Shown here: one piece after another, positions 1,200 to 64,000 of the stretch
Numbering within the stretch: position 1 is the first letter of the stretch
How the letters are laid out: each line of letters begins with the position of its first letter
From: Thermoplasmata archaeon
GTDB taxonomy: Archaea; Thermoplasmatota; Thermoplasmata; Lutacidiplasmatales; UBA184
DNA: 64,000 nucleotides
Direction: 5' to 3'
NCBI GenBank assembly: GCA_022750195.1
Contig: JAKIWE010000004.1
Location: 124,001-188,000, forward strand
The notes under the pieces: model-generated
Databases searched by the model: none
Seen by the model: only the letters and a program-made list of their open reading frames with translations
What the model was told of the DNA's origin: nothing
Made by a program: the position numbers and the translations under genes

Positions 1200-1652
1200 T
1201 CAGCTTCGCGACTCTGACTCTCGGCTTTGGGGACGGAGTTCGAGCCCGATCTGTCGCGCGGCGCCGAGGTCGTCGCGGCACGCCCAGTGCTCCAAGATTC
1301 TCCCATCGACCACGCGGAAAAGGTGGAGATGCTGGACGGTGTACGACCGACCGCTCGGAGGGAGGCCCGTGAAGATCCCGCTGTTCACTGCGAACGCCGG
1401 CTCGGCGGCGTGGACGCCATGGCAGGTCGTCCGTACGGAGACCCACTCCCCCTCGGCGACCATCTCGTGCAAGGTGTGGCTCTCCTGGACGGCTCGAAGG
1501 CTGGCGTAGACCTTCTCGATCCCGGCGGGGTCGATGGGACGACCGTGATTGAGCGCCGCGGCCGACCAGAGGCCGGCCGCACCGCGGAGGTCGCCTGCGC
1601 CAAGAAGTTCGAACTGTTGACGAATGAGCGCCTTGTTCGCCTCGGTCGTCAT
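1200..1652 (-). CDS. SnoaL-like ester-cyclase-fold protein
   Basis: 150 aa. The sequence has the NTF2-like SnoaL pattern: a helical N-terminus (ANKALIRQQFELLGAGD), a central HTLHEMVAEGEWVSVR strand with conserved Glu-Trp, and a C-terminal HLHLFRVVDGRI.EHW block. Members act on small hydrophobic molecules in diverse pathways, so the substrate cannot be named. The open frame extends upstream, but the extra 106 residues are Arg/Ser/Pro-rich shadow sequence, so the ATG at 1652 is chosen. It lies downstream of the secreted-protein gene at 1735-2595 and is separated from it by a T-run terminator. Confidence 0.7.
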   Translation of the reverse strand: MTTEANKALIRQQFELLGAGDLRGAAGLWSAAALNHGRPIDPAGIEKVYASLRAVQESHTLHEMVAEGEWVSVRTTCHGVHAAEPAFAVNSGIFTGLPPSGRSYTVQHLHLFRVVDGRILEHWACRDDLGAARQIGLELRPQSRESESRS

Positions 1653-1677
1653 CCCAGGGAGACAGGAGCGATCCGTG

Positions 1678-1684
1678 AAAAAAA
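1678..1684 (-). terminator. poly-T terminator after 1735-2595 gene
   Basis: Seven A on the plus strand give a T7 run on the minus strand about 50 nt after the stop of the minus-strand gene ending at 1735. Archaeal transcription commonly ends in T-runs without hairpins. Confidence 0.5.
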
Positions 1685-1734
1685 GGACGGGGCACCCACG
1701 TCCGGAGTCCCGGAACCTCCGAGGCACTACCGGA

Positions 1735-2595
1735 CTAGAAGATCGCGCAAGTCCGGAAATTGAAGGCCCAACCACCGTGGAACAGCTCGGTGACTCCGGG
1801 GTCCGGGTTGGAGATCTGCCACACCCCCACGTTCGCGGGAAAGCGGTAGGAGTACCTGACGAGGGCTGGGAGCTGCGCGGGTACCAGGAGCGTGTGCCCG
1901 TTCGAGGTGAACGGGATCTCGAAGGAGTACTCCGTCGAGGACGAATCGGACGCGGCCGCGCCACCCCCACAGGTCGATGCGTTGAACCGCACGGAAGCGG
2001 GGTCGAAGGCGTTGCCGAACCGAACCGACGGCAGGAGCGGTGGGTGCTCGGCTCGGGACCCTGGATCGGCCATCGAAAAATTCGCGGTCTCGTTCGCGTC
2101 CGACCGGTTCAGCGGGTGGGCGAGCGTGTACCCGCCCTCGTCGTGGCTCGGACTGGCCGTGGGCAGCAACGGCTGAACGCAAGGGTGGTTGACGCCGGGA
2201 CCGACGGTAGAGACGTTCCGGGTGCCCGAGAGGTTCCACTCGGCGAGCTCGAAAACGCCCGCCGATCCTCCGTCGCTGATGTTGATCCCGAGGATGAACC
2301 CAGACTCCGTCAAGTTGGCCCAGGCCCAGCCCAGGTAGGGGGAGTTCAGGAGGATCATCGGCGTCCAGAAGACCCCGGTCGCTTCGACAGGGCCAAGCTC
2401 GCAGGTCTCGTGAGTGACGAGCCCGAAGCCCACGCCGGGGAAGAGCAATGGCACGACAAGGGCGATGACGACGGCGCTTGCGGTCGCGTAAGCCATCACC
2501 ACGCGGGTACGGTGCCTGCGCGCGGGCGACCCGTGCCCCAAAGATTCGGGCGAAGGGTGAACCGTGGAGTCGAAACTCTTGACCGACACCCCCAC
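1735..2595 (-). CDS. predicted membrane-anchored extracellular protein, unrecognised
   Basis: 286 aa, no family recognised. A basic N-terminus (Arg-rich to about residue 32) is followed by one strong hydrophobic helix at about 34-55 (AYATASAVVIALVVPLLF), then a Ser/Thr/Asn/Pro-rich domain with several N-glycosylation sequons and at least three Cys. The topology is therefore cytoplasmic N-terminus, signal anchor and extracellular domain. An ATG at residue 34 would give a plain signal peptide and is an alternative start. It is 29 nt downstream of the thioesterase gene and probably co-transcribed with it; a T7 run follows. Coding status is fairly sure, function unknown. Confidence 0.6.
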   Translation of the reverse strand: MGVSVKSFDSTVHPSPESLGHGSPARRHRTRVVMAYATASAVVIALVVPLLFPGVGFGLVTHETCELGPVEATGVFWTPMILLNSPYLGWAWANLTESGFILGINISDGGSAGVFELAEWNLSGTRNVSTVGPGVNHPCVQPLLPTASPSHDEGGYTLAHPLNRSDANETANFSMADPGSRAEHPPLLPSVRFGNAFDPASVRFNASTCGGGAAASDSSSTEYSFEIPFTSNGHTLLVPAQLPALVRYSYRFPANVGVWQISNPDPGVTELFHGGWAFNFRTCAIF

Positions 2596-2624
2596 CCCTT
2601 CGTTTCCGATGGAACGGCGAGACC

Positions 2625-3077
2625 CTACGCCCGAGCTTCGTGCTCTGGCGCGACGGCGTCCTTCTCTAACTTCGCTCGAAGCACCGTCGTGATCTCTTTC
2701 TTCTTGCCCTTATCGTAGTCGTAACAGACCACGACGGTGCGACCACGAGCGTAGGTGATCGTTCGTTCTGGGTTACGGAACCGGTAGAGCAGGGTCACGC
2801 TCGTCCGGCCGAGGGGACGTACGGGAGCGACCTCACCTACGAGCACGTCACCGTACCGGGCTGGAGCGAGGAAGCGGCAGGAGGCTTCGGCGAGGATGAT
2901 GTCGAGGTGGGACGGGTCCGGTCCTCCGACGAGCGGTAGGTAGTACTCGCAACGAAGCGTTTCCATGAACGGGAAGTAAGCGGCGTGGTTGAGGTGACCG
3001 AGGACGTCGAGGTGATGGTACTCGACGTCGAACCGGCGTCGGTGGGGCCACTCCTCCTCCTTCGTCGGCGCGTCCAC
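2625..3077 (-). CDS. acyl-CoA thioesterase, 4HBT hotdog family
   Basis: 150 aa, the usual length for a YbgC/FadM-like 4-hydroxybenzoyl-CoA thioesterase. The VEYHHLDVLGHLNHAAY segment (about residues 18-34) matches the family's active-site block, with the catalytic Asp in the HHLDVLGH part and Asn-His just after. It should hydrolyse acyl-CoA thioesters in the cytoplasm; chain-length preference is unknown. A CTATATC box 32 nt upstream (3106-3112) fits a leaderless transcript from the ATG at 3077. It is first in a likely two-gene unit with the membrane protein at 1735-2595. Confidence 0.8.
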   Translation of the reverse strand: MDAPTKEEEWPHRRRFDVEYHHLDVLGHLNHAAYFPFMETLRCEYYLPLVGGPDPSHLDIILAEASCRFLAPARYGDVLVGEVAPVRPLGRTSVTLLYRFRNPERTITYARGRTVVVCYDYDKGKKKEITTVLRAKLEKDAVAPEHEARA

Positions 3078-3105
3078 GGTCGCTACGTCGCTTCAGCGGC
3101 GTGTC

Positions 3106-3112
3106 CTATATC
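3106..3112 (-). promoter_or_regulatory. TATA box of the thioesterase gene
   Basis: GATATAG on the minus strand centred about 32 nt upstream of the start at 3077, in GC-rich surroundings. It is typical of leaderless archaeal transcription. Confidence 0.5.
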
Positions 3113-3253
3113 TCGGTGCCCGCTGTCCGCCGCCTCCATGTCCCGGCGCGTTCACGGGTCGCACGGGACAGGTGGGGCGAGGGTGTCGAAGTTCCATTGG
3201 CAGCGGGGGGGTGGGGGGGTACGCCCACACCCGTAACCGCTCCCCCCAGCGAG

Positions 3254-58208: not shown

Positions 58209-59918
58209 CTAGCCGGTTCGGACCGTTGAGCCCGCGGCCGTAGGGAGCGCCGAGGGGAGTCGGAGGGCGCGGGTCAAGAAGTCGAACTCGGGCGTGGCCG
58301 CGACGACCGCCAGGGGGAGATGTGACGGGCCGAGCCGGAGCAACCCCTCCGCGTACCCCGCCTCCGCCGGCAGGCGGGCTCGCGGGAGCCAGTCGGACTC
58401 GACCGCCGTGAGCTGGAAGAACTCCCGGGTCGGTTCGGAGACCTCCGGGAGCCGGAGGAGGAGGGTCGCGGAGAGATTCCGCAACAACGACCGCCCGCTG
58501 TCGGTCGTGAGGAAGTCGTCGGGGTTCTGGCTGAGCAGCAGCAGACCCGCGTCGTAATGCCGCACATGCCGCACGATCCGGTCCAGGAACTCGATGGTCG
58601 CCGGGTGACGGGTGAGGAGGTGCGCTTCGTCGACCACGACGAGCGTCGGGCCGGGGGCGGCCCGCAGGCGTCCGTACACCGCCTCGAGAAGGTAGGCGAG
58701 GTGGAACGGGAGGTGGGAGGGGTCCGCGCCGGCGAGGTTGATCACGAGCGGGTCGGCCGAGAGGTCGACCGTCGTCGGTCCGTCAAGGTGCAGCAGCGGG
58801 CCGTGGAGGAACAGCTCCAGGAACTGGTGGAGGCGGCGAGCCGCTGCGCCCTCCCCGGACGGGAGCACCGCGGCGAGATCCGAGAAGGTCGGGGCCCGGT
58901 CCAGGGAGCTCCGGTACAGGGTATCGACCGCGCTCTCGAGCAACGCGGACTCCTCATCGGAAAGGGTCGGGAACAGCGCGCGGACCATGGCGACGACGTT
59001 CGCCGCCTTCGCCCGCCGATCGCCGCCGGTGGTCGCCGGGTCGAGCGGGTTCACGCGGGCCTCACCCTCGGGTCCCAGGGTCACGACCGCTCCGCCGAGC
59101 GCCGGCGCTAGGCGCGTGAACTCGCCCAGGGGGTCGATGAAGGTGAGCGAGACACCGTGGGTCATCCAGCGGCTCCGCAGCGCCCAGAGCGCGGCCGCGA
59201 ACGTCTTGCCGGAGCCGGTGGTCCCGAAGACCCCCCAGGAGTAGCTCCCGTGGAGCCACCGGTTCACGATCACCGGCGCCGCGTCGTCGAGCAGCAGGCC
59301 GACCAGGATGCCGCCCGGCTCGGCGATCGATTCGTCGACGAACGGGAAGAACGCCGCCGCCCCCTCGGTTGAGAGGAGGTGCCAGTACCCGGCGGGTCGG
59401 CCGTCGCCCGGAGGGAACTCGGGAGGAGCCACCACCCGGACCGTATCGAACGCGGGCGAGCGGGTCCGTAGTCCCAACGCGGCGGCGCGCCGCTCGAGGT
59501 CGCGACGGATCCTCTCGGCGACGACCGGGCGGCGGTCGACTCCGTGGAGCGAGAGCCCGACCCGCCAGAGGTCCTGCTCCCGAGCCGCGACGCGTTCGGC
59601 AAGCTCCGCTGCGGCCGCGGCCTCGACCCGGAGGCGTGCCGGGCGCCCGCCCCGGACGGTCCCCCCGCTCTCGAGCTCGGCCTCGGCCCCGACGTCCGCG
59701 GCGTGCAGGAGCTCGAGCGCCTCGGTGGAGGCGAACCGGTGGAGCTGGAGGCGGAGCTCGCCGGCGCTGGAGGTCGGCACGAGCCGACCGACGAACCCGA
59801 ACGGCACCTCCGACGGCAGCGCCGAGACCAGCAGCGGGGCGTCGACGCCGAACCGTCGGCGGATCCAGGAGACCGTCTCGATGGGGGGCGCGCGGAGCCC
59901 TCCCGGACGCTCCGTCAC
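58209..59918 (-). CDS. VirB4/HerA-like motor ATPase of a type IV secretion-like system
   Basis: 569 aa. Walker A WGVFGTTGSGKTFAAAL is at about residues 230-246, then FIDPLGEF, Walker B LVVVDEAHLL at about 426-435, and the sensor segment LLLLSQNPDDFL. Between them FPTLSDEESALLESAVDTLY is characteristic of VirB4/TraC/CedB ATPases. The N-terminal 220 residues carry a partial VirB4-type domain; a further VirB4 N-terminal-like portion sits on the gene at 60262-61044. It should energise pilus or channel assembly. The ATG at 59918 overlaps the previous stop as ATGA. It ends the operon. Confidence 0.85.
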   Translation of the reverse strand: MTERPGGLRAPPIETVSWIRRRFGVDAPLLVSALPSEVPFGFVGRLVPTSSAGELRLQLHRFASTEALELLHAADVGAEAELESGGTVRGGRPARLRVEAAAAAELAERVAAREQDLWRVGLSLHGVDRRPVVAERIRRDLERRAAALGLRTRSPAFDTVRVVAPPEFPPGDGRPAGYWHLLSTEGAAAFFPFVDESIAEPGGILVGLLLDDAAPVIVNRWLHGSYSWGVFGTTGSGKTFAAALWALRSRWMTHGVSLTFIDPLGEFTRLAPALGGAVVTLGPEGEARVNPLDPATTGGDRRAKAANVVAMVRALFPTLSDEESALLESAVDTLYRSSLDRAPTFSDLAAVLPSGEGAAARRLHQFLELFLHGPLLHLDGPTTVDLSADPLVINLAGADPSHLPFHLAYLLEAVYGRLRAAPGPTLVVVDEAHLLTRHPATIEFLDRIVRHVRHYDAGLLLLSQNPDDFLTTDSGRSLLRNLSATLLLRLPEVSEPTREFFQLTAVESDWLPRARLPAEAGYAEGLLRLGPSHLPLAVVAATPEFDFLTRALRLPSALPTAAGSTVRTG

Positions 59919-60265
59919 CGCCTCGACCCCCGAGCACGGGCGCGTCGTGCGAGGTTCCAGAGCACGACCGTCATCCCCGCCAAGATCGGCCCGCGCACGG
60001 CGAACCAGGTACCCGGCACGCCGAGCGCCACCGACCAGCCGACCGCAGCCGCGGTGCCGCCGATCATCCAGTCGGGCCAGCCCTTCGAAGCCGACGGGGC
60101 CGACCGTCGGACCACGGCCCAGGCGACGAACGCGAGTGCCCCGAGCGTCGCCGTGAGCCCGACGAAGTACGGCACGACGACCGAGAGGGCCCCAGCTAGG
60201 ACCGTGAAACGGGCGATCGTGGTGAGGAGGTCGGCCGGGACGGGAGGGGCCGCGGCGGCGGTCAC
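59915..60265 (-). CDS. small membrane protein of the T4SS-like operon
   Basis: About 116 aa with three or four hydrophobic helices (about 14-32, 35-52, 68-85, 90-105) and a basic C-terminus. No family is assigned; size and position are those of minor T4SS membrane components. The GTG at 60265 makes a GTGA overlap with the previous stop and is preferred to the ATG at 60286. Its own stop overlaps the ATPase start by 4 nt. Confidence 0.6.
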   Translation of the reverse strand: MTAAAAPPVPADLLTTIARFTVLAGALSVVVPYFVGLTATLGALAFVAWAVVRRSAPSASKGWPDWMIGGTAAAVGWSVALGVPGTWFAVRGPILAGMTVVLWNLARRARARGSRR

Positions 60266-61044
60266 GAGCTCCTCCCCGGGCCCCATCCGAACGCGACGAG
60301 GCCCTCCGTCAGCGCCGGCCCACGGAGCCGCTCCGAGCCGACCCCAAGGGCGTCGAGCCGCTCGTGAAGGTCGCGCAGGCGTCGCTCGAGCTGGAGCGAG
60401 GCGCTCGGGGAGCCCGAGGGTCCGCCGACCGCCAGCAGGACGTCGCGACGTCGGCGGTGGCGGCCGAGCAGTCGGACCATCTCGACGTAGCCGTCGCGGG
60501 CCCGTTGTTCGTCGGAGCCGAGAGTGACAGGGAGGGGTACGAACGGCCGGGTCCCCAGCGGGAGGCCGCGCACCAGCAGGGCAACGCCGCCGTCGAGGGA
60601 GCCGAGGAGCTGCCGATAGGCCGTGAACAGCTCGCGGGCGTTCGCGGGCGGGAGGAAGGCGACCGGGATCCCCTCGGCGCGAAGCATGCCGACCAGGACG
60701 CCCCCGGGGACGGCGGCGAGGGCCCGACCGCTCGCGATCGACGGACGATGGCGAGCCCGGGGCCTACCGCCGGCGCCACCCCGTCGACGCCAGGTCCACC
60801 CCAGGTAGTCGGCGAGGCGACGATCGAAGGGAGGGCCGTCGGTGGGACGGACCCCCACGACGAAGCCCACGGCGAGGAACGGCAGCCACAACCAGGGGCT
60901 GACAAAGCCCGCGACGACCGCTCCAGCCGCCGCGTAGGCGAGGAACTTGAGGGCGTCGCGGCCGGAGGGGAACGGTCCGAGCGAGGGAGAACGGGGCACG
61001 GCGGCCTGGAGCCGGAGCACCGGCGGAGCCGTAGGGTCGGTCAT
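60262..61044 (-). CDS. VirB3/PrgI-like membrane protein fused to a VirB4 N-terminal-like domain
   Basis: 260 aa. Two close TM helices (about residues 31-65, FLAYAAAGAVVAGFVSPWLWLPFLAVGFVVGV) match the VirB3/PrgI layout. The C-terminal 150 residues resemble the substrate domain at the start of VirB4/TraC: ELFTAYRQLLGSLDGGVALLVRGLPL, a Tyr-Glu-Met helix, and LERRLRDLHERLDALGV. The VirB4 function thus appears split over two genes. The long frame upstream overlaps the VirB6-like gene and is spurious; the ATG at 61044 overlaps its stop as ATGA. Confidence 0.7.
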   Translation of the reverse strand: MTDPTAPPVLRLQAAVPRSPSLGPFPSGRDALKFLAYAAAGAVVAGFVSPWLWLPFLAVGFVVGVRPTDGPPFDRRLADYLGWTWRRRGGAGGRPRARHRPSIASGRALAAVPGGVLVGMLRAEGIPVAFLPPANARELFTAYRQLLGSLDGGVALLVRGLPLGTRPFVPLPVTLGSDEQRARDGYVEMVRLLGRHRRRRDVLLAVGGPSGSPSASLQLERRLRDLHERLDALGVGSERLRGPALTEGLVAFGWGPGRSS

Positions 61045-62186
61045 GGGTCGGTGGCCGCGCGCGAGGCCACGCCTCCCCCGCTGCGGACGGGCGGGAATCG
61101 GTCGCGACTGCGCACGGCGTGGACGAGGCGGGGGACGTGGCGGAACAGGTGATGGGCGCCCCATCCGATCGCCTCCGAGCTCAGCGCCGGGATCGTCGCG
61201 GGGAGCGCGGTGCTCGTCGCGGTCCGGGCCAACGAGCTGGCGGTCGCTCCGCCCCCGCCGGCCCGACCGCCGGCCGCGACCGGCCGAAGGTACCCGCCTC
61301 CTCCCGCGGACGCGAGGAGCAGGCCGCGCTGGATCCCGCCGACGACCACCGACCCGCCGCCGGCGAACCCGGCCTCGCGCAGCTGGGCCCCGGCGAGGCT
61401 GATGAGGGAGGGGGCGGAGACGGCGACGGTGAGGTACCCGAGCAGCAGGAGGACGCTCGGCGAGCCGACGGCGAGCTCGAGCGGGACGACGACGACGCAC
61501 GGAAGGAAGCTGAGCTCGATGAACAACAGCCAGGCGCGCCGGGCCAGCGGGGCGAAGGTCGGGATCGGCCAGAGCAGGGTCGCCACCGGCAGGAGGACGA
61601 GGAGCACCGCGAGCATCGCGTCGCGCAGCGCAACGGCCGCCGCGAGGATCATCACGAGCGAGAACAGCAGGAACGTGACGACGAAGGCGAGCACGCCGTT
61701 GTCCCACGAGAAGCCGATCTCGCCGTACCCGCCGAGGTTCCCCCAGTGCTGCCACGCGCCCTGGTCGAACCCCTCGATCACCGGGTAGAGGCCTCCCGCG
61801 AGACCGAAGAGAGCGCCGGCGACGGGGAGCGTGAAGTTCGCGAGGACCGCGGCGACCACGAGCCGGGGGAGCAGGGCATGCGTCCGCTCGGCGAGGCGGG
61901 GCGAGGCGGCGCGGGCAAGGTAGAGCACGCCCACGCCGACCGCGACCAGCGCCAGCGCGGGGTCGACCACGTGCACGACGAGGAAGCTGCTGAAAGCGCC
62001 GGCGACGGCGAGGAAAGCGCCGGAACCGCCGCCGGTCGGAGCGAGCGTCGGGTACAGCGCCGCGGGAGCGAGCTCGGGGACGAGGAGGTTGTCGTAGGTG
62101 GGACCGAGGACCGCGGCGAGGAGCCCGGTGAGTCCGACGAAGATCCCGAAGAGGATCGACTGGATCACCTGGTTGAGGTCGACCAT
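61041..62186 (-). CDS. VirB6/TrbL/CedA-like polytopic channel protein
   Basis: 381 aa with about seven hydrophobic helices up to residue 265. The block LRDAMLAVLLVLLPVATLLWPIPTFAPLARRAWLLFIEL (about 188-226) is the recognisable VirB6/TrbL pattern shared with archaeal CedA-like proteins. A Gly/Ala-rich cytoplasmic or extracytoplasmic tail ends the protein. It would form the inner-membrane DNA or pilin passage. It starts 19 nt after the VirB2-like gene and overlaps the next by 4 nt. Confidence 0.75.
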   Translation of the reverse strand: MVDLNQVIQSILFGIFVGLTGLLAAVLGPTYDNLLVPELAPAALYPTLAPTGGGSGAFLAVAGAFSSFLVVHVVDPALALVAVGVGVLYLARAASPRLAERTHALLPRLVVAAVLANFTLPVAGALFGLAGGLYPVIEGFDQGAWQHWGNLGGYGEIGFSWDNGVLAFVVTFLLFSLVMILAAAVALRDAMLAVLLVLLPVATLLWPIPTFAPLARRAWLLFIELSFLPCVVVVPLELAVGSPSVLLLLGYLTVAVSAPSLISLAGAQLREAGFAGGGSVVVGGIQRGLLLASAGGGGYLRPVAAGGRAGGGGATASSLARTATSTALPATIPALSSEAIGWGAHHLFRHVPRLVHAVRSRDRFPPVRSGGGVASRAATDP

Positions 62187-62205: not shown

Positions 62206-62583
62206 TCAGCCGCCGACGACCCACTTGGCGAGCGCGAAGAGGAGGCCGCTCAGAGCTGCGACGAACAGCAAGGTCCCCACGAGGGCGTCGCGCGCTCGGT
62301 CCTTCGCTTGCACCTTCTTGCTGAGGTCGTTCGAGAACCAGCTCAGCGCGACCCGGGTCCAGACGAGGGCGAGGAGCCCCCCACCGGCGGCGCCCACCAG
62401 CGTCACCAGGCGGCCGACGGCGGCGGAGAAGTTGCTCACGACCGAATCGTTCGCCGTCGCGGCGGGAAGGTGGAGGGGGAGAGAGGTCGAAGGCAGGTCG
62501 GTGAGCGGGGCGGCCGCCGCTAGCAGGAGGGCGACCGACAGCAGCGCGGTCGCTCCGGTCCCTGGTCCACGGGAGGCCGTCAT
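62206..62583 (-). CDS. VirB2-like two-helix pilin
   Basis: 125 aa. A signal-peptide-like hydrophobic stretch (about 11-27) is followed by a 25-residue spacer. Two TM helices (about 55-78 and 100-121) are separated by a short charged loop, SNDLSKKVQAKDRARDA. This hairpin with a basic cytoplasmic loop is the layout of VirB2/TrbC and of archaeal Ced/Ted pilins. The ATG at 62583 overlaps the upstream stop as ATGA, which excludes the longer in-frame extension. Confidence 0.65.
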   Translation of the reverse strand: MTASRGPGTGATALLSVALLLAAAAPLTDLPSTSLPLHLPAATANDSVVSNFSAAVGRLVTLVGAAGGGLLALVWTRVALSWFSNDLSKKVQAKDRARDALVGTLLFVAALSGLLFALAKWVVGG

Positions 62584-64000
62584 GCCGGTGAGCCCTCCGG
62601 CTCGGAGGCACCTCCCAGCGCCGATCCCGAAGGCCCTCCCTCGTCCCAGAAGAAGAGCGGCTCCTCGTCCGGGCCTGGCTCGGTCCGAACCCGGTGCGAC
62701 CGTTGCCATCGGCGGAGCGCGTCGTCGACCTGCGTTTCGGAGAGGCCGTCGTCCTCCGCCAGGAAGTAGAGCGTGGCCCGGTCGAGGCCCTCAGACTCCT
62801 GCAGGTAGCGACGTACGGCGTGCATCGCCTCCGCCGGGCTCCCCGGGCCTTCGCGGCGTCGGGTGCGGCGCCGGCGACGTGGCAGCAGGATGGCGGCGGC
62901 GACGCCCCCGGCTCCGAGGAGACCGACCAGCCAGGTGGGGTCCGAAACCGCGGGGGGCGAGGGGGAGGACGGCCCCGGCGCCGTCGGAGCCGGGACGGTG
63001 GGACCGACGGTCGCGACGACGGTGAGAACCGACTCGCCGCGACCCCCGAGCAGGTCGGTCACCAGAAGTCGGAGCTCGACGTAGCCGGCCGAGCGGGGAG
63101 TAAGCCCGAGCTGGACGGGGCCGGCGGTCGAGAGGTTGCCGACGAGGCGCTCGCCGTCGGTCGAAGTGAGCGCATAGGCATACGGTGGGTCGCCCCCGCC
63201 GAACTCAGCCGAAAGCACCGCCGGCGTCCCGACGACCAGGCCGGAGGGCGGCAGCAGCGAGAGCAGGAGCGGGGGGAGCACGCGGACCGTAAGGTTCGCC
63301 GAGGCCCACACCCCGGCCGCGTCCCTCGCCGTCGCGAGGAAGGTGAGGTTGCCACCGGCGAGGGCGGTCGCCTCCCAGCCGAACGCCCCGGAGCCGTTGA
63401 GGACGCCGGTCGACGGCCCCGTCGAGTTCACCGGCAGCGAGGCGGTCAAGCTCCAGCTGACCGGCGGGGAGCCACCGATCAGCTCACCGCCCACGCCGAA
63501 CCGTTCTCCGGGTTCCGAGAGCAACGCTCCGCTCGTCAGCGTGATCGACGGCGGCGGGTAGATCGCGGCGACCGGAGCCGTCGCGGCGAGCCGAACTCCG
63601 AGAGCGTCCTCGGCCGTGACGGTCACCCACAGCGTGCCCGCCAAGCCCGTCGTGACCGCCTCGAGGTACCAGCCGTCCGCCGGGAGCTCGGCGCTCCGGT
63701 TCTCCCCCCCTCCGACCGGAGCCCACCCGACGGAGAACGGAGGCACCGCCCCGGTGAGGTTCACGACGAACGGCACCGCCCGCCCCACATCTCCGACCGG
63801 CGAGCCGGTTCCGAGGACCAGGCGCAGGGGCCCCGCGACCGCGAGCGTAGCATCCGAGCCGACGCTCGTGCCGCCGAGGTCCGTCACCACGACGCGGATG
63901 TCGACGTTTCCCGGCAGCTGCGGCGTGACGGTCCAGTTCGGCCCGATCCCCGTTAGCCCGATCGAGCTCGTCCAGCTGACGAAGTACGGCGCCTCTCCTC
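62580..64000 (-). CDS. Ig-like surface protein with anchor and cytoplasmic helical tail (5' end beyond the window)
   Basis: At least 473 residues; the frame stays open to the window edge, so the N-terminus is outside. Several Ig/PKD-like units (PPFSVGW, PPVSWSLT, PPYAYALT strands) are followed by a Pro/Ser linker, one TM helix (TWLVGLLGAGGVAAAILL) and RRRRRTRRR. The roughly 85-residue tail (PAEAMHAVRRYLQESEGLDRATLYFLAEDDGLSETQVDDALRRW) looks like a helix-turn-helix. It is the first visible gene of the T4SS-like operon and could be a recognition or adhesion protein. It shares this design with the gene at 4548-7340. Confidence 0.7.
   Translation of the reverse strand, partial: GEAPYFVSWTSSIGLTGIGPNWTVTPQLPGNVDIRVVVTDLGGTSVGSDATLAVAGPLRLVLGTGSPVGDVGRAVPFVVNLTGAVPPFSVGWAPVGGGENRSAELPADGWYLEAVTTGLAGTLWVTVTAEDALGVRLAATAPVAAIYPPPSITLTSGALLSEPGERFGVGGELIGGSPPVSWSLTASLPVNSTGPSTGVLNGSGAFGWEATALAGGNLTFLATARDAAGVWASANLTVRVLPPLLLSLLPPSGLVVGTPAVLSAEFGGGDPPYAYALTSTDGERLVGNLSTAGPVQLGLTPRSAGYVELRLLVTDLLGGRGESVLTVVATVGPTVPAPTAPGPSSPSPPAVSDPTWLVGLLGAGGVAAAILLPRRRRRTRRREGPGSPAEAMHAVRRYLQESEGLDRATLYFLAEDDGLSETQVDDALRRWQRSHRVRTEPGPDEEPLFFWDEGGPSGSALGGASEPEGSPA

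Follow-up and report, generated by a model that had tools for sequence, protein, structure and literature searches.

A VirB3-like membrane protein predicted to carry the first VirB4 subdomain beside a shortened VirB4-type ATPase in Thermoplasmata

VirB3 and VirB4 in the closest described systems

The classical VirB4 chain comprises two subdomains, here called A and B, followed by a motor, and VirB3 is a separate two-helix anchor. In the R388 system, VirB3 ties the central VirB4 hexamer to the membrane, and the N-terminal domains of VirB4, which are themselves membrane-embedded, hold the dimers together (PMC12624023; PMC12857230). VirB3-VirB4 fusion proteins are already known in some conjugative systems (PMC12624023). 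TrsD, which is widespread in Patescibacteria, is remotely homologous to the N-terminal portion of VirB4 and has no assigned function (PMC12102498).

We analyzed a window (the whole 64,000-nucleotide stretch of DNA) in which the same modules appear to be divided differently. It lies on a contig of 222 kb and belongs to a Thermoplasmata genome rich in GC. Structural models make it very probable that VirB4 is cut here near the equivalent of residue 221 of TrwK, the R388 VirB4, with A on a VirB3-like protein of 260 residues and B plus the motor on an ATPase. R388 TrwM and TrwK (VirB3 and VirB4) contain the same modules in the same order, and the structures align; in R388, however, A, B, and the motor form one chain with VirB3 apart, whereas in the archaeal operon VirB3 would be joined to A. 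The VirB3-VirB4 fusions, such as an archaeal protein of 877 residues, likewise join the VirB3 helices to A, but they retain B and the motor in the chain, while the 260-residue chain stops after A. The systems with TrsD/TraD (NF041427, found with TrsC and TrsE in the pSK41/pGO1 type and in Patescibacteria) share the A/B cut, since A has its own gene beside virB4 and is not part of the B-motor ATPase. In those systems, each of VirB3, A, and B-motor has a gene to itself, whereas in the archaeal operon VirB3 and A would be one protein.

The operon and the predicted cut in VirB4

The genes lie in a minus-strand operon in the order surface protein, VirB2-like protein, VirB6-like protein, 260-residue protein, 123-residue protein, ATPase, and 186-residue protein (Table 1), with overlaps of a few bases between several of the neighbors. 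The gene of the 123-residue protein overlaps its neighbors by 25 and 4 bp. Matches were found in 28 loci for the 123-residue protein, in 29 for the 167-residue protein, and in 37 for the 186-residue protein. The 381-residue protein had no direct match in Pfam; a gene in the equivalent position of a haloarchaeal cluster matched TrbL_3 (E 2.3e-22). The 167-residue protein had no match in family scans, and the pilin and channel labels of the VirB2-like and VirB6-like genes are putative, having been assigned by position and topology. The surface protein matched Big_9 weakly (E 0.041). The 186-residue protein matched no family in Pfam or NCBIfam; an N-terminal RRRxSWSL motif is common to most of its homologues.

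Table 1. Features of the operon and unsplit relatives (positions in the window unless a locus is named)
Feature	Position	Strand	Basis
Conserved protein 3' of the ATPase, 186 aa, no membrane segment	57561-58121	-	Homology
VirB4-type ATPase predicted to lack subdomain A: B (about residues 19-153) and motor, 569 aa	58209-59918	-	Model, NCBIfam, conserved residues
Multi-helix membrane protein between the VirB4 halves, 123 aa, position conserved	59915-60286	-	ORF overlaps, hydropathy
Predicted fusion of a VirB3/PrgI-like anchor with subdomain A of the VirB4 N-terminal region, 260 aa	60262-61044	-	Structure model, family profile
Predicted VirB4 subdomain A, residues 109-258, beta-beta-alpha-beta-alpha-beta-alpha-beta-alpha	60271-60720	-	AlphaFold2 model, structure alignment
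Two predicted membrane helices, VirB3-like hairpin, residues 28-47 and 50-65	60850-60963	-	AlphaFold2 secondary structure, hydropathy
Polytopic membrane protein, VirB6/TrbL-like by position and topology, 381 aa	61041-62186	-	Hydropathy
VirB2/pilin-like protein by position and two C-terminal hydrophobic segments, 167 aa	62206-62709	-	Hydropathy
Surface protein, Ig-like repeats, C-terminal membrane helix, 754 aa, runs past the window	62580-63998	-	Sequence
Unsplit VirB3-A-B-motor proteins	L200 4453-7086 (+); L201 4043-6670 (-); L198 3719-6235 (-); L199		

A mechanical ORF list begins the 260-residue frame further upstream, at a GTG at 61755. We place the start at the ATG at 61044, because starting there gives a 4-bp overlap with the stop of the gene upstream and because the starts of the homologues fall between -4 and +13 bp from the stop of their upstream gene. 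The two tandem membrane helices that the initial annotation had read from the sequence are borne out by the model, and the hydropathy peaks cover residues 31 to 65. This N-terminal helix pair, in a gene that lies close to a VirB4-type ATPase, two genes upstream of it, in every locus, is what is expected of a VirB3.

The same annotation had proposed that a VirB4 N-terminal domain follows the helices, and the structure predicted for the 260-residue protein alone agrees. The AlphaFold2 model, built with 47 homologues, has a mean pLDDT of 84.5 and values of 88 to 97 over residues 111 to 250. Its best Foldseek match is TrwK, and in VIA-align its residues 91 to 258 superimpose on TrwK residues 11 to 220 (8rtd_g; Z 9.8, rmsd 4.1, 157 residues), the first match among 1000 PDB chains. 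The order of strands and helices in the domain is that of the start of TrwK, and the predicted fold is that of VirB4 residues ~11 to 220.

The ATPase accounts for the remainder. Residues 12 to 560 of its model align to TrwK residues 223 to 797 (Z 27.2, 503 residues); the rmsd of this alignment is large, at 12.3, and probably reflects a domain arrangement in the model that differs from that of TrwK. The motor aligns to Thermoanaerobacter VirB4 (4ag5) with a Z of 41.4, and the protein matches the NCBIfam CD1110 VirB4 family (E 2.1e-38). This RecA-like motor has the nucleotide-binding residues G232, T234, G235, G237, and K238, which, like D430 and E431, are invariant in 35 ATPase homologues, and it is therefore expected to be active. 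The ATPase begins at the equivalent of TrwK residue 223 and so contains the second alpha/beta subdomain, B (residues 19 to 153), without A, unlike a classical single-chain VirB4 and unlike an ATPase with a complete N-terminal domain of its own. The initial annotation had the motor on a separate gene two steps downstream; the gene is indeed separate and in that position, with the 123-residue gene between, but it does not encode the motor alone, since it also holds the latter half of VirB4's N-terminal region. The two genes tile a single VirB4 without overlap. Direct comparison of the two family profiles detected no similarity, and the two VirB4 halves thus do not look like duplicates of one another.

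Conservation and links to undivided VirB4

The 260-residue family is present in 76 of the 106 genomes of the order, and in 75 of these 76 the ATPase is strongly matched as well. Both genes occur together in 46 distinct loci, in every one of which they share a strand and are 289 to 553 bp apart. Given these counts, the arrangement is not due to chance. The 260-residue family is found in further families of the class as well, DHVE2 among them. The arrangement constitutes an operon that is conserved in Thermoplasmata (Lutacidiplasmatales and DHVE2), mostly as a single copy. The small membrane protein between the halves is found in both groups and is absent from two loci (L142 and L143). The named relatives bearing the locus are Thermoplasmata genomes from metagenomes, including Candidatus Lutacidiplasma. 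A contig labeled as candidate division WOR-3 bacterium (L136) carries an archaeal operon of the DHVE2 type and is likely mis-binned, and two contigs labeled "bacterium" (L086 and L129) also have Thermoplasmata-like matches.

Searches with the 260-residue protein found no VirB3/PrgI or VirB4 model in Pfam and NCBIfam, neither PrgI nor VirB4 among PDB sequences, and no match to the TrsD/TraD model NF041427 at E values up to 1; its family profile gave nothing significant against single R388 VirB4 or F TraC sequences. PF12666 (PrgI) did not match the protein itself and matched 9 of the 47 homologues weakly (best E 0.01). Since direct family scans are empty for so diverged a protein, its link to VirB4 goes via structure and intermediate families.

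One intermediate is a DHVE2 relative whose single-contig chromosome of 1,486,778 bp has the two-gene arrangement. Its 246-residue counterpart (L202) matches VirB4 models NF045971 at positions 20 to 164 (E 0.01) and NF045975 at 126 to 273 (E 4.3e-5), while its ATPase matches the same models at 182 to 734 (E 6.7e-62) and 275 to 829 (E 1.1e-42), respectively. The curated profiles therefore tile across the DHVE2 pair as the structures do across the pair in the window.

Unsplit proteins of 838 to 951 residues from sister genera provide a second intermediate, having PrgI-like helices, A, B, and the motor in one chain. The 877-residue example (L200) matches PrgI at 25 to 104 and covers positions 20 to 722 of a VirB4 model without a break, and an unsplit relative matches PF12666 with an E of 0.0019. 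In local hhalign profile alignments, the 260-residue family falls on residues 10 to 297 of the unsplit chains (probability 96.6, E 5.4e-10) and the ATPase family on residues 316 to 846 (E 6e-68), so that the two are collinear and complementary; reversed-profile controls stayed at noise, with E near 0.5 (0.46 for the 260-residue family). The 260-residue family also aligns to stand-alone TrsD-like proteins of Saccharibacteria (probability 97.6, E 2.8e-12), which in turn align to residues 18 to 200 of full-length bacterial VirB4 (E 1.8e-17). One genome (G004) contains a split locus together with unsplit copies. The unsplit gene of L200 adjoins a gene for a VirD4/HerA-like protein of 1197 residues, which suggests a separate mobile conjugative element. 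In a tree of the ATPase, the archaeal split forms are grouped; because support at the base is weak and branches are long, we make no claim as to whether the split or the fused form came first.

A ferredoxin-like fold is common, and many unrelated chains score between Z 6 and 7.4 against the 260-residue model. Together with the empty direct family scans, this could be taken to mean that a PrgI-like anchor carries, at its C terminus, an unrelated domain of ferredoxin-like or regulatory type, and that the ATPase has no need of A, being either a VirB4 that is short by nature or a HerA-like translocase. We regard this as very improbable: VirB4 chains occupy ranks 1 to 4 and are the only ones that span the whole domain, with 156 to 160 aligned residues against 74 to 98 for the others. 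Moreover, the profile matches of relatives fall at the same positions of VirB4, and the unsplit chains show the same order of modules. The existence of unsplit fusions in sister genera also raises the prospect of a VirB3-VirB4 fusion that has decayed, or was misassembled, into two frames in this genome alone. Recurrence of the two genes and the intervening gene in all 46 loci, the same arrangement in the single-contig DHVE2 chromosome, and the invariance of the catalytic residues leave that explanation almost no probability. A VirB4 divided between two conserved genes best accounts for these observations.

Possible function and comparison with other divisions of VirB4

If the gene boundary has moved as proposed, VirB3 and A would make up the 260-residue protein and B and the motor the 569-residue ATPase. 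The VirB3 helices most likely keep A at the membrane, on its cytoplasmic side, from where A would dock in trans onto B of the ATPase, a step that we consider probable. Docking would rebuild the VirB3-VirB4 contact that anchors the ATPase hexamer to the membrane (its formation, stoichiometry, and substrate are what we infer), restoring the R388 geometry, and the motor could then drive the neighboring VirB2-like pilin and VirB6-like channel.

The operon contains no relaxase or standard coupling protein, and for this reason we propose that it probably serves pilus assembly and possibly DNA import of the Ced/Ted kind, a functional assignment that is tentative as a whole. Neither of the two families expected of a conjugative type IV secretion system, the PF02534 coupling protein and the PF03432 relaxase (the one relaxase family searched), had a match in this genome, whereas control genomes gave matches. 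The Ced/Ted import systems of Thermoproteota are described as a chromosomal VirB2-, VirB6-, and VirB4-like set without a relaxase (PMC9905601). The Thermoplasmata operon resembles them in these respects, a likeness that need not mean orthology, which lends some plausibility to a reading compatible with a split VirB4, namely, that the pair forms an import machine and does not act in pilus building alone or in export. Weighing on the other side are a weak coupling-protein-like match elsewhere in the genome, to a VirD4/HerA-like ATPase (TraM-recognition type, PF12696, E 1.3e-4; L214 on contig C19) that is a possible coupling protein, and the VirB3-A component of the Thermoplasmata operon, which the consulted part of the Ced/Ted description does not mention (PMC9905601). 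Import is a minority expectation. More speculative still is the idea of a conserved, relaxase-free chromosomal type IV machine in Thermoplasmata, in which a VirB3-A ring and a B-motor ring would be separate proteins, their ratio free to differ from that of a single-chain VirB4, serving DNA import or pilus building.

The initial annotation had regarded the division as unusual, a view that did not hold. The same cut sets off TrsD/TraD or TrsD-like genes in pSK41, Geobacillus, Pontibacillus, and Saccharibacteria, and the VirB3-A fusion is also present on haloarchaeal and Embleya plasmids; with the same cut so common, the locus is less surprising than it had seemed. The three-gene form VirB3 / A / B-motor occurs in pSK41 (TrsC, TrsD, and TrsE), in Geobacillus, Pontibacillus, and Miltoncostaea plasmids, and in Saccharibacteria. 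Assigned by profiles and sequence pattern, the halves in Embleya and in haloarchaea show the division VirB3-A / B-motor; the first Embleya gene is annotated as a "PrgI family protein," and the haloarchaeal counterpart matches TrsD NF041427 (E 1.1e-5). These clusters differ from the Thermoplasmata operon in having longer linkers and tails and in being plasmid-borne, and the Embleya cluster also in an adjoining VirD4-type gene. With the DHVE2 protein as query, no plasmid match was obtained. Lacticaseibacillus has an undivided VirB4 with a separate PrgI. On two Oscillospiraceae contigs (L149, at 569-1252 and 1268-3235, and L152), A and B-motor are in adjacent frames, which is a recent split or a frameshift; in a near relative (L145), VirB4 is undivided.

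In Streptomyces, CmdC, a relative of SCO6880, is encoded with the VirB4-like CmdB (PMC2782261). The cmd operon influences both sporulation and the segregation of chromosomes. Proteins of the SCO6880/CmdC family (NF042935) have membrane helices followed by A and lie beside a separate VirB4-like ATPase, as here. The NF042935 profile has A at 132 to 297 (a weak match) and B at 327 to 477, and the SCO6880 family and members of the 260-residue family match weakly in both regions (best E 6.7e-6). The SCO6880 chain would thus include B, whereas in the archaeal operon B sits in the ATPase, and the profile matches suggest that actinobacterial SCO6880/CmdC comprises VirB3, A, and B and is paired with an ATPase that is motor only.

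These comparisons suggest that VirB3, A, B, and the motor are four collinear modules, with gene boundaries that can fall between any two, depending on the lineage: VirB3 / A-B-motor, VirB3 / A / B-motor, VirB3-A / B-motor, VirB3-A-B / motor (from profile matches only), and VirB3-A-B-motor. Orphan TrsD and some proteins annotated as "PrgI family" or "hypothetical" would thereby gain a concrete role as the missing first part of VirB4, and the position near TrwK residue 221 would be a natural breakpoint relevant to reassembly in trans. Our literature searches, which covered few subscription journals, found no described VirB3-A fusion with a B-motor ATPase. The A/B cut is known in bacteria and common; the VirB3-A fusion with a B-motor ATPase is, in the literature searched, an undescribed variant of it.
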